Source: Vallitaleaceae bacterium
Lineage (GTDB): Bacteria > Bacillota > Clostridia > Lachnospirales > Vallitaleaceae
Length of the DNA stretch: 64,000 bases
Assembly (NCBI GenBank): GCA_028277605.1
Contig: JANQFZ010000068.1
Coordinates: 62,001 to 126,000, forward strand
Direction: 5' to 3'
In this document: positions 47,298 to 62,983 of the stretch, in pieces
How positions within the stretch are numbered: position 1 is the stretch's first letter
Layout of the letters: the number at the start of each line of letters is the position of its first letter
Translations under genes and position numbers: made by a program
Notes under the pieces: generated by a model
Seen by the model: the letters and a program-made list of their open reading frames with translations, nothing else
Told to the model about the DNA's origin: nothing
Databases searched by the model: none

Positions 47298-48093
47298 AAT
47301 AATTACAGGACTTGTAGCATTACCTATTGCCGTTATTCCGCTTTTGTTGGGTCATGCTATTTTGATTGGTTTGATTTTTATTGTTTCTATTATTGGCTTA
47401 TATGAATTTTATAAGGCCTATAATATTAGGAGTACGTTTTTAAAAGCTATGGGATATGTTTTAAGTATTATCTATTATTACTATATTGTTTTTGAAGGTT
47501 TAATAGCTTTTCAGGTCATGTTTGGTGCCTATATATTAATTCTATTAGCTTATTATGTTATTACCTATCCTAAATACGATCTGAAGGAGATTGCTATTGT
47601 TTGCTTTGGATATATATATATTCCTTACTTGCTTTCTCATGTAGCTTTGATACGGATTGAACCAAAATATGGTGCATGGTTTGTATGGCTTATTTTTATT
47701 GTTGCTTTTGGAAGTGATACATGTGCGTATTTTACAGGCAGACTATTTGGAAAGAGAAAACTAGCTAAGCAGTTAAGCCCAAATAAAACAGTTGAAGGTG
47801 CCATTGGAGGTGTCATTGGTTCCGTGCTTTTGTGCGTACTTTTTGGCATTATTCTAATGTCTATGGGTAAGTTTAATAATGATAGTCCTATATTAATTTT
47901 ATTAAGTATTATTGGTTTGGTTGGATCGGTTCTATCTCAAATTGGAGATTTAGCTGCATCAGCTATCAAAAGACAGGTAGGTATAAAGGATTTTGGAAAT
48001 CTCTTACCAGGACATGGAGGGCTGTTAGATAGATTAGATAGTATTTTATTTACAGCACCATTTATTTATTACATTATGCAGTTTTTTATATAG
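47287..48093 (+). CDS. cdsA: Phosphatidate cytidylyltransferase
   Basis: CDP-diacylglycerol synthase, 268 residues, is the entry enzyme of phospholipid synthesis. It has about eight membrane segments. Near the C-terminus is the family signature SQIGDLAASAIKRQVGIKDF followed by GNLLPGHGGLLDRLDS, and GSDTCAYFTGRLFGKRKL lies near residue 140. It is translationally coupled to uppS. A palindromic repeat fills the gap after the stop codon. Confidence 0.96.
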   Translation: MKRRIITGLVALPIAVIPLLLGHAILIGLIFIVSIIGLYEFYKAYNIRSTFLKAMGYVLSIIYYYYIVFEGLIAFQVMFGAYILILLAYYVITYPKYDLKEIAIVCFGYIYIPYLLSHVALIRIEPKYGAWFVWLIFIVAFGSDTCAYFTGRLFGKRKLAKQLSPNKTVEGAIGGVIGSVLLCVLFGIILMSMGKFNNDSPILILLSIIGLVGSVLSQIGDLAASAIKRQVGIKDFGNLLPGHGGLLDRLDSILFTAPFIYYIMQFFI

Positions 48094-48112
48094 TTTTTAA
48101 TTTATTTTGACA

Positions 48113-48178
48113 AAGGGTTAATCGTATTAGCTTCGCTGGTTCTTTTAGGGGGTTATGGAGTTAATACTATTAGCCCTT
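48113..48178 (+). repeat. Palindromic intergenic element A
   Basis: Two 20-nt arms (48113-48132 and 48159-48178), AAGGGTTAATCGTATTAGCT and its near-complement, match at 17 of 20 positions, with a 26-nt centre. The arm sequence resembles those of the element at 57707. It separates cdsA from dxr and may also act in transcript termination. Confidence 0.65.
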
Positions 48179-48209
48179 GAATTATTGCATAACTCAAACT
48201 AAGTATGCA

Positions 48210-57129: not shown

Positions 57130-57192
57130 TTTATGATACCACACGATTTATAGTAAGATTAAGTATTAGAATCATAATAGGGGGGAATGTAT

Positions 57193-57678
57193 ATGCATCA
57201 GGTTCTTATCTATACAGATGGAGCTTGTCGCGGCAATCCTAATGGTCCGGGAGGCTACGGGGTTGTTCTTTTCTATACAGATGCATCAGGGAAAAAGCAT
57301 ACCAAAGAACTATCTGGCGGCTATAAAAGTACAACGAATAATAGGATGGAATTGATGGCTGTTCTGAAAGGATTAGAGGCCTTAACTAAGCCGTGTAAAA
57401 TTAAGCTATACTCAGATTCTCAGTATATTGTTAAAGCTTTTAATGAAGGATGGCTTGAGAATTGGATTAAGCATAATTGGAAAAGAGGCCGTAAAAAAAC
57501 AGAGCCTGTTAAAAATGTTGACTTGTGGAAAAAAATACTAAAAGCAAAGGAAATTCATGAGCTTGAGCTGATTTGGGTTAAAGGACATGCAGGACATGTG
57601 TACAATGAAAGATGTGATATTTTAGCTACAGATGCAGCTGATGGTACAGATTTATTAGACGATAGTGTGGACGAATGA
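57193..57678 (+). CDS. rnhA: Ribonuclease HI
   Basis: RNase HI, 161 residues, cuts the RNA strand of RNA-DNA hybrids. The catalytic acids are D9 (IYTDGACRGNP), E53 (NNRMELMAV) and D75 (LYSDSQY), with the His in WVKGHAGH. It has the basic-loop segment KRGRKKTEPV typical of the E. coli type. ATG 57193 has GGGGG seven bases upstream, while the ATG at 57187 is too close to it. Confidence 0.96.
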   Translation: MHQVLIYTDGACRGNPNGPGGYGVVLFYTDASGKKHTKELSGGYKSTTNNRMELMAVLKGLEALTKPCKIKLYSDSQYIVKAFNEGWLENWIKHNWKRGRKKTEPVKNVDLWKKILKAKEIHELELIWVKGHAGHVYNERCDILATDAADGTDLLDDSVDE

Positions 57679-57706
57679 TTTTTCTTTATAGTTTTTGATA
57701 AACAGT

Positions 57707-57810
57707 CAAGGGTTGATAGTGTTAGCTTCATGCCCACTAAACATCACCTCGTTTAGTATGGGTTACGCTCTACTTCTGTTTCATTGCGTAGCTAATACTA
57801 TTAACCCTTG
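57707..57810 (+). repeat. Palindromic intergenic element B
   Basis: Two 21-nt arms (57707-57727 and 57790-57810) pair at 19 of 21 positions, the rest being G-U. An inner hairpin CCCACTAAAC/GTTTAGT-ATGGG (57733-57762) lies within. The interior (CTTCAT ... TTACGCTC, TCTGTTTC) closely follows that of the elements at 62488 and 62721, though the arms differ, so it is a diverged member of the same family. The gap 57679-57997 otherwise holds an AT-rich leader with TATAAT at 57927 but no matching -35. Confidence 0.7.
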
Positions 57811-57997
57811 CTATAAGTTGGAGCATAATGCTACTTCAAGATTTTGTTGATTAACGTTATCTATGTCGCCATCTATGTATTGAGATAAAAGTTAGAGTTG
57901 TAATAATGAATAATAAAATTTTTTCATATAATATAAAAGCTTATGTTAAGTGTTTATGAAGCTTTATATCGGTTGATTGTAGTAAAGGAGAAAAACT

Positions 57998-61826: not shown

Positions 61827-62474
61827 ATGCTGACAGATATTCAAGCAGTAATTTTTGATTTAGATGGGACATTAATAGATTCTATGTGGCTGTGGCAATC
61901 TATAGATGAAGAGTATCTTAAACTACATCATATTGATATGCCCGATGGTTTTCAAGATGATTTAGAAGGGATGAGTTTTACTGAGACAGCCAGATATTTT
62001 AAAGAGCGTTTCCAGTTGTCGGAATCAATTGAGAAGATCAAAGATGACTGGAATAAGATGGCATGGGATTATTATGCCCATCGAGTAGACTTAAAGGATG
62101 GCGTTGTGGCATTTTTAGATTATCTACGTAATAAAGAGCTTCCAATAGGAATAGGGACAAGTAACTCGAGAGAGCTGGTAGAGCTGGTAGTTAGCAAGTA
62201 TCATATAGAGAAGTATTTTACATCTATTAGGACATCTTGTGAGGTAGATAAAGGGAAGCCGCATCCAGATATTTATTTGAAGGTTGCTTCTGATTTGGGA
62301 GTTGATCCTTCAACATGTTTGGTTTTTGAGGATATTCCTAATGGAATTGTTGCTGCTAAACGTGCTGGTATGAAAGTGTGTGCTATAGAGGATGATTTTT
62401 CTAAAGCGATGAAGGATAGGAAGGTTGAGTTGGCGGATTACTTTATTGAGAGTTATTATGAGGTGATGAAGTAA
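61827..62474 (+). CDS. HAD-superfamily phosphatase, beta-phosphoglucomutase-like
   Basis: This 215-residue HAD hydrolase has the nucleophile and acid D11 and D13 in FDLDGTLIDS. The helical cap covers about 18-85, followed by IGTSNSRELV, KGKPHPDIYL and FEDIPNGIVAAKRAGMKV. The layout is that of beta-phosphoglucomutase-like phosphatases; the substrate is unknown. GTG 61818 is in frame, but ATG 61827 has GAGGTG six bases upstream. Two palindromic elements follow the stop codon. Confidence 0.9.
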   Translation: MLTDIQAVIFDLDGTLIDSMWLWQSIDEEYLKLHHIDMPDGFQDDLEGMSFTETARYFKERFQLSESIEKIKDDWNKMAWDYYAHRVDLKDGVVAFLDYLRNKELPIGIGTSNSRELVELVVSKYHIEKYFTSIRTSCEVDKGKPHPDIYLKVASDLGVDPSTCLVFEDIPNGIVAAKRAGMKVCAIEDDFSKAMKDRKVELADYFIESYYEVMK

Positions 62475-62487
62475 AGAGTGGGGTGAA

Positions 62488-62641
62488 ATTTTGGCTTGGA
62501 GTAAGCGAAAGAAAGTATAAAAGGTATTAGCTTCATAAACCCCTAAACGTCCTTGTTTAGCAGGGTTTACGCTCCACTCCTGTTCCGCTGTTTCGCTAAT
62601 ACCTTTTATACTTTCTGAGATGGGGTATGCGAAGCCAAAAT
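62488..62641 (+). repeat. Palindromic intergenic element C
   Basis: A 154-bp element has nested symmetry. Outer arms are ATTTTGGCTT (62488-62497) and AAGCCAAAAT (62632-62641). A perfect 22-bp inner pair lies at 62510-62531 and 62595-62616. A central AAACCCCTAAAC/GTTTAG-CAGGGTTT hairpin lies at 62537-62568. No reading frame of note is present. Downstream sequence (TATCTCTGTGGTGGT) is also shared with copy D. Confidence 0.85.
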
Positions 62642-62720
62642 ATCTCTGTGGTGGTGTGTTTGAGTAAACTAGATAACGAAGGTATTTTTCCATCGAGTGA
62701 GATATAGTAAAACAGTCAAA

Positions 62721-62874
62721 ATTTTGGCTTGGAGTAAGCGAAAGAAAGTATAAAAGGTATTAGCTTCATAAACCCCTAAACGTTCGTGTTTAGCAGGGTT
62801 TACGCTCCACTCCAGTTCCCCTGTTTTACTAATACCTTTTATTTTTTCTAAGACGGAGTATGCGAAGGCAAAAT
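62721..62874 (+). repeat. Palindromic intergenic element D, second copy of C
   Basis: This 154-bp copy aligns with element C without gaps, starts 233 bp after it and in the same orientation, and carries scattered substitutions, mostly in the right half. The right inner arm is partly eroded (62828-62849). The spacer between copies (62642-62720) has no gene. Together the pair fill the 509-bp gap between the HAD gene and the YgiQ-type gene. Confidence 0.85.
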
Positions 62875-62983
62875 ATCTCTGTGGTGGTATATATGAGTAA
62901 ACACGATTATGTGGTACATTGAGTTAGGAATAATATGTATAGTGTTTTAAATAGATTGGTTTTTGAGAGGATTGGACTTGTTT

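Follow-up and report, generated by a model that had tools for sequence, protein, structure and literature searches.

The window, by which we mean the whole stretch of 64,000 nucleotides analysed here from a Vallitaleaceae bacterium (contig JANQFZ010000068.1), carries close to its end two direct repeats of 189 bp each, which are 91% identical and start 233 bp apart. Copy C (62486 to 62674) and the second tandem unit, copy D (62719 to 62907), lie on the + strand, and both were delimited by self-comparison and by matches to two models of the element, R1 and R2. Within copy C, all on the + strand, folding gives an outer stem with its 5' arm at 62488 to 62497 and its 3' arm at 62632 to 62641, and self-comparison gives a middle stem that is perfect over 22 bp (62510 to 62531 with 62595 to 62616). 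Enclosed by these are an inner hairpin predicted by folding (62536 to 62569), whose conserved tip CTAAACGTCCNTGTTTAG was placed at 62543 to 62560 by pattern search, and the second small hairpin region of a three-way junction (62570 to 62594, from alignment A2), which reads CTCC in copy C and GTCCNT in many relatives. The initial annotation had described two tandem nested palindromes 233 bp apart with these perfect middle arms, and both are real; the unit is indeed a nested palindrome, but the repeated length measures 189 bp and not 154 bp as proposed.

Copy C matches R1 over 62490 to 62634 (119.1 bits) and also R2, whose source copies all come from other genomes (71.6 bits, E = 1.8e-21); the corresponding values for copy D are 96.9 bits for R1 and E = 1.7e-14 for R2. 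Folded as RNA, copy C reaches -60 kcal/mol (z = -5.2), a value equalled by none of 200 shuffles, and copy D -45.9 kcal/mol (z = -2.5), equalled by 3 of 200. The 17 differences between them all lie at or 3' of 62551. Fifteen fall within the folded stretch, and 5 of these strike a pair of copy C, none being compensated in D; copy D is therefore partly decayed, which bears out the earlier suggestion that scattered changes partly break its pairing. Whether the differences respect pairing thus has two answers: they do not between C and D taken alone (0 of 5 compensated) and they do across the whole family, and it is only at that level that compensation is visible.

The R1 match of copy C starts 16 bp 3' of the stop codon of a HAD hydrolase gene, in the same sense. 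On the minus strand an open frame of 127 aa (62310 to 62693), probably spurious, overlaps copy C and the last part of the HAD gene in antisense. A third, diverged copy (57687 to 57830, + strand; R1 71.6 bits, E = 1.4e-17) has no R2 match at E 0.01, and its R1 match begins 9 bp 3' of the stop codon of an RNase H gene (ORF 57187 to 57678, Pfam RNase_H), again in the same sense. A possible decayed relic lies at 48089 to 48199, where weak R1 matches occur on both strands (20.9 to 22.3 bits, E = 0.0014 to 0.0035); it lacks the conserved inner tip and has no R2 match at E 0.01. The neighbouring radical-SAM protein has no relative among the viral contigs.

The proposal that these copies belong to a genome repeat family was confirmed by a whole-genome search, which brought the number of copies, some of them partial, to at least 23. 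The DNA search returned 24 matches, 3 of which are mere second-strand arms, and the count also takes in one further partial copy and two found by covariance model. It enters once the matches at C53:148806 and C52:75877, which are probably a single copy split by a contig break. There, two contig ends (C53:148806 to 148897 and C52:75877 to 75959) share an unusual form of the element, and the two contigs probably adjoin through it, the assembly having broken inside the element. Another copy of this genome (L123, 1670 to 1856) is followed at a short distance by a ribosomal protein L10 leader (RF00557, 84.4 bits). When 18 full copies from this genome were aligned, the outer stem proved variable, followed by the stem of about 20 bp, and the core proved conserved; two-sided changes were already present in 9 of 39 predicted pairs.

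To follow the element into relatives we used the covariance model R1, made from 40 copies, which belong to this genome and to genus g3. The underlying alignment A2 comprises 40 of 52 windows, 12 windows of g3 having been dropped for near-identity, an inserted hairpin, a deletion or truncation. R1 finds the element in 9 of the 22 genomes of the same taxonomic family, with 1 to 80 matches per carrier genome (E 0.01, some weak second-strand matches included). The second model, R2, was made from 28 copies of genus g3 alone to avoid circularity, and it recovers C, D and all 15 other loci of this genome that were supplied. Across these genomes the element measures about 150 to 210 bp. Its outer stem and a further stem of about 20 bp lead to a three-way junction bearing two small hairpins, both of whose loops carry GTCC (the second one CTCC in this genome). 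In one sub-branch of genome G021 (L039, L043, L063, L067 and L070) the inner hairpin holds an additional short hairpin with the sequence GTGCAACATGTCAATGTTGCTT or nearly so. At L217 (genome G008) and L243 (G017) the flanks and element ends look identical and the neighbouring ORF lengths agree, in what are supposedly different species; either a recent transfer or cross-contamination of the assemblies would account for this.

Of 392 genomes of the order, 4 contain the 18-nt core tip CTAAACGTCCNTGTTTAG; this genome is among them, and all four belong to the same taxonomic family. Searches outside the family were exact or near-exact, with records near this genome excluded, so that distant forms would be missed. 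Within that scope, a 191-bp query had no match in plasmids or phages, and the few matches to the core elsewhere, three to a 19-nt core among genome contigs (one Staphylococcus, two Aerococcus) and two to an 18-nt core among viral contigs, were dismissed as chance, their surroundings showing no stems by eye. A literature search returned no title describing this repeat, beyond the work on TwoAYGGAY considered below.

The stems of the element covary very strongly across the family. In the 40-copy alignment two-sided changes are present in 25 of 34 pairs, 98.5% of the 1359 cells are paired, and none of 500 shuffles matches the observed covariation on any of five measures; control structures slid along the alignment are 33 to 47% paired. 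These figures come from related copies, whose cells are not independent, and from a covariance alignment, which slightly favours the structure. Substitutions in other copies are compensatory, a point that the initial annotation had put forward for checking, and stems are replaced wholesale between branches, the junction and loops remaining constant.

Covariation of this kind may reflect constraint on RNA or on DNA, and the mismatches can help to distinguish the two. From a Watson-Crick pair one transition leads to G-U and the other to A-C, and reading the other strand swaps them; selection on an RNA should make G-U dominant, and without it the two should be about equally frequent. As a G-T on one strand is an A-C on the other, the count tests both strands at once. 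Among 93 distinct copies and all 34 pairs there are 118 non-Watson-Crick cells (33 G-U, 38 A-C and 47 other), and in the 28 clean pairs, six of uncertain register having been dropped, there are 24 G-U, 20 A-C and 35 other. If each pair-and-type event is counted once, among copies with no more than 3 such cells, there are 13 G-U, 15 A-C and 25 other for the 34 pairs, and 12, 11 and 19 for the clean ones. Cell counts restricted in the same way give 15 G-U against 19 A-C in clean pairs (89 copies), and 16 against 31 when all 34 pairs are taken (86 copies). The last figure is the one that leans towards an RNA, since these A-C cells would be G-U on the strand whose loops read GGA; however, 8 of the 31 sit on one pair, 7 of these 8 in copies of G008, and the excess is therefore largely a matter of shared ancestry. 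The G-U share of clean-pair cells is 0.9%, as against 6.6% in 51 tRNAs of two related genomes, a control for which ARAGORN printed pairs without any mismatch, so that only this share is usable. A long RNA, into which the initial annotation had thought that the palindrome could fold, finds no support in the full counts, G-U pairs being no commoner than A-C mismatches.

Comparison of copy with copy, again leaving out the six pairs of uncertain register, points in the same direction. One-sided differences stay at 2.7 to 5.1% of pair columns in all bins up to a loop divergence of 0.65, whereas two-sided Watson-Crick changes climb from 0.7% to 45.5% (at 0.45 to 0.50) and remain at 36 to 40% up to 0.65. 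The two bins of highest divergence, with 57 copy pairs, differ: the one-sided share rises there to as much as 10% and the two-sided share falls to 22 to 27%. The arms of a copy are more alike to each other than to the arms of other copies (24 copies; 0 of 202 shuffles), and in one copy, L221, an insertion in one outer arm is mirrored in the other. From these sequences, spreading lineages look to have changed both arms together, and one-sided changes look to be mostly private decay after insertion. The covariation pattern and the mirrored insertion fit a DNA hairpin with arm-to-arm correction. A template switching process that produces two-sided changes without an intermediate has been proposed for hairpins in the available text of PMC8794818, and the likeness lies in just such changes. 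That text calls circumstantial the evidence that short RNA stems are maintained in this way, whereas the signal here comes from a whole repeat family.

The position of the element relative to genes is far from random. Behind an upstream ORF, 73 copies lie in the same sense and 18 in the opposite sense (n = 91 with an upstream ORF, p = 5e-9), and copies within tandem gene pairs are in sense 32 times and antisense 6 times (p = 2.4e-5); 39 matches lie between convergent ORFs and 9 between divergent ones. The count used 94 of 97 matches, three second records of counted copies being omitted, and gene calls were mechanical ORFs. Removal of four redundant places, with the neighbouring copies L181, L231 and L236 retained, left both biases in place (p = 3e-8 for the upstream sense, p = 4e-5 for tandem pairs). 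Moreover, 53 of the 73 same-sense matches start within 100 bp past the end of the upstream ORF.

Such a location raises the possibility of an element acting at the 3' ends of mRNAs, as a bidirectional intrinsic terminator or as a 3' stabiliser, spread and kept for its function at gene ends. Besides the closeness to ORF ends, this would accord with a branch present in G008, G013 and G021 whose outer stem GGGGCTGTC..GACAGCCCC is often flanked, by eye, by A-rich and T-rich sequence, and with deletion derivatives that retain this stem after loss of the core. In G021, six loci (L131, L134, L136, L140, L144 and L147) are short hairpins that keep the GGGGCTGTC outer stem while their interiors shrink, and the element seems to decay there into terminator-like hairpins. 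Survival of the GGGGCTGTC outer stem after core deletion suggests later use as a terminator. As an account of the element itself we nevertheless consider a 3'-end function quite improbable: no terminator-like site was found in the window between 62350 and 63100 in a search for loops of 3 to 8, the outer stem there is A+T-rich, neither a conserved core nor a fixed orientation is necessary for termination, and an excess of G-U is absent.

A more specific candidate for an RNA is offered by the Rfam family TwoAYGGAY (RF01731), which gives full-length matches at 9 of the 26 loci taken from relatives, at 30.9 to 39.2 bits. Every match is below the gathering score of 43 and falls on the element itself, on the strand opposite to the orientation of the element used here; 2 of 10 loci were matched at E 0.1, and 7 of 20 at E 1, those 20 including 4 of this genome, none of which was matched. 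E values in the scan range from 0.0038 to 0.71, and L172 scanned alone gave 4e-5. At the window copies neither Rfam scan returned a match. The loops GTCCNT read ANGGAC on the opposite strand, and in the alignment of L172 to RF01731 a long helix encloses two hairpins, each with an AYGGAY loop. The likeness thus lies in a long helix closing a junction with two AYGGAY-loop hairpins (opposite strand here), and the differences in scores below 43, in the unmatched copies of this genome among those scanned, and in the element being a multi-copy dispersed repeat whose pairing statistics fit DNA better than RNA. On balance the element family is probably a diverged branch of TwoAYGGAY.

According to the available text of PMC2864571, TwoAYGGAY is listed as a probable RNA that is not cis-regulatory, from human gut, gamma-Proteobacteria and Clostridiales; that of PMC4333381 reports matches to the CsrA motif and suggests that TwoAYGGAY is a small RNA of Clostridia to which CsrA binds. 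One might then suppose that the element is this small RNA, multiplied by chance mobility, its ANGGAC loops sequestering CsrA. The full-length matches in relatives, the strong conservation of both loops and their fit to AYGGAY, the reported CsrA motifs and the tally of 31 against 16 in the cleaner copies all speak for it. We regard it as unlikely nonetheless. Over the 93 copies and over distinct events G-U is favoured on neither strand. In 73 of 91 cases the gene upstream is oriented against the GGA strand, so that read-through would yield the strand without GGA. In this genome only the first loop reads ANGGAC, the second being CAGGAG and not AYGGAY, and RF01731 matches neither the window nor any of the four loci of this genome that were scanned. 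The present data, which are sequence data, are mostly against the idea of a CsrA sponge, and a plain RNA element was rejected as the best reading, with G-U not above A-C and the strand bias against it.

The initial annotation had also raised the possibility that the repeats are mobilised by a transposase elsewhere. Mobility is indicated indirectly, by one element nested inside another (L279), by a 69 to 72-bp derivative with a nearly identical internal junction at five loci of G021, and by one gene pair flanking a copy in G008 whose orthologous pair in G017 has no element, an empty site in a relative of the kind that had been looked for. The derivative either spread itself or arose several times over at one and the same short repeat. 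Tandem copies in direct orientation are seen more than once, on contig C57 of this genome and three in a row in L071/L089. No responsible transposase was identified in a search that covered the Y1 family. The Y1 transposase family Y1_Tnp (PF01797) is found in 17 of the 22 genomes of the family, with one match in this genome and 16 in G020, which yet has a single element match; it was not found in G008 and G017, both 94% complete and rich in copies (80 and 29 R1 matches). Mobilisation by a Y1 transposase of the RAYT type was set aside on this absence.

Ordinary MITEs, with terminal inverted repeats, a DDE transposase and the core as passive cargo, would offer another route. In the GGGGCTGTC branch terminal inverted repeats are present, and the GGGGCTGTC ends are conserved even though that stem is variable further in; the derivative at five loci, moreover, lacks the core. 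The ends differ between branches, however (GTAAATG.. and GTCAAAATTTTAGC.. in others), and the core is the same. Target-site duplications of 2 to 9 bp were in no excess over shuffled flanks in the one G021 branch analysed, where most loci were counted in both orientations; flank complementarity in G021, counted likewise, was marginal (p = 0.044 at 4 bp, 0.07 to 0.27 at other lengths). In a search for an autonomous copy, 43 exact end matches were obtained in G021 and 82, with up to 2 mismatches, in G008; none of the 13 of 30 end loci read in G021 flanks a gene, and the same holds for the 13 of 30 read in G008, where 11 have a close partner end and 2 (L281 and L291) a degenerate one, with no gene between the ends. 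A MITE of this sort is consequently as improbable in our judgement as a 3'-end function. By eye, there is no clear replichore bias in G021.

A further comparison is with the extragenic hairpin repeats. Like REPINs and REP doublets, as the available text of PMC3116915 presents them, the element consists of dispersed extragenic hairpin units with compensatory changes in their arms; such changes are described there as common, and a single-stranded hairpin is proposed as the transposition intermediate. Unlike REPINs, it shows no invariant 16-mer end pair, and it is 150 to 210 bp long with a three-way core. It also differs from the REPIN/RAYT system in that no Y1 transposase was found in the copy-rich G008 and G017. 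Relative to ERIC sequences, whose architecture differs, and to other stem-loop repeats, the peculiarity here is that stems are rewritten between copies and junction and loops are constant. With ERIC it shares an intergenic location (PMC2267715, in the text available).

Taken together, we believe that the best reading is that of dispersed, non-autonomous mobile DNA palindromes, similar to REPINs and ERIC sequences, whose arms are kept matched at the level of DNA, and we give it a probability of about 0.58. Spreading copies would have Watson-Crick-perfect stems, which are most simply explained if they work as DNA hairpins, either single-stranded or extruded, in which one arm is corrected from the other by template switching or by mismatch repair. 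An inserted copy would then decay regardless of RNA pairing. Insertions would build up just 3' of stop codons, mainly in the sense of the upstream gene, and the outer stem could persist as a terminator-like hairpin once the core is deleted. As the core is conserved beyond the needs of mobility based on end repeats, it may serve a separate function.

One might speculate further, although we consider it unlikely, that TwoAYGGAY and the branch found in this genome together constitute a hairpin-DNA replicator of Clostridia and not an RNA. In such a replicator arm would be copied from arm at each cycle and stems would be rewritten in mirrored steps, with junction and loops fixed through recognition by an enzyme other than Y1 and with strand-specific insertion behind genes. 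A catalogued bacterial "RNA", proposed as a CsrA sponge, may be a mobile DNA palindrome. The comparison of A-C with G-U counts separates constraint on RNA from constraint on DNA for both strands, and could be applied to other RNA families known from covariation only. The family itself would be a natural record of how the identity of palindrome arms is kept up, with many divergences, few intermediates and a mirrored insertion.
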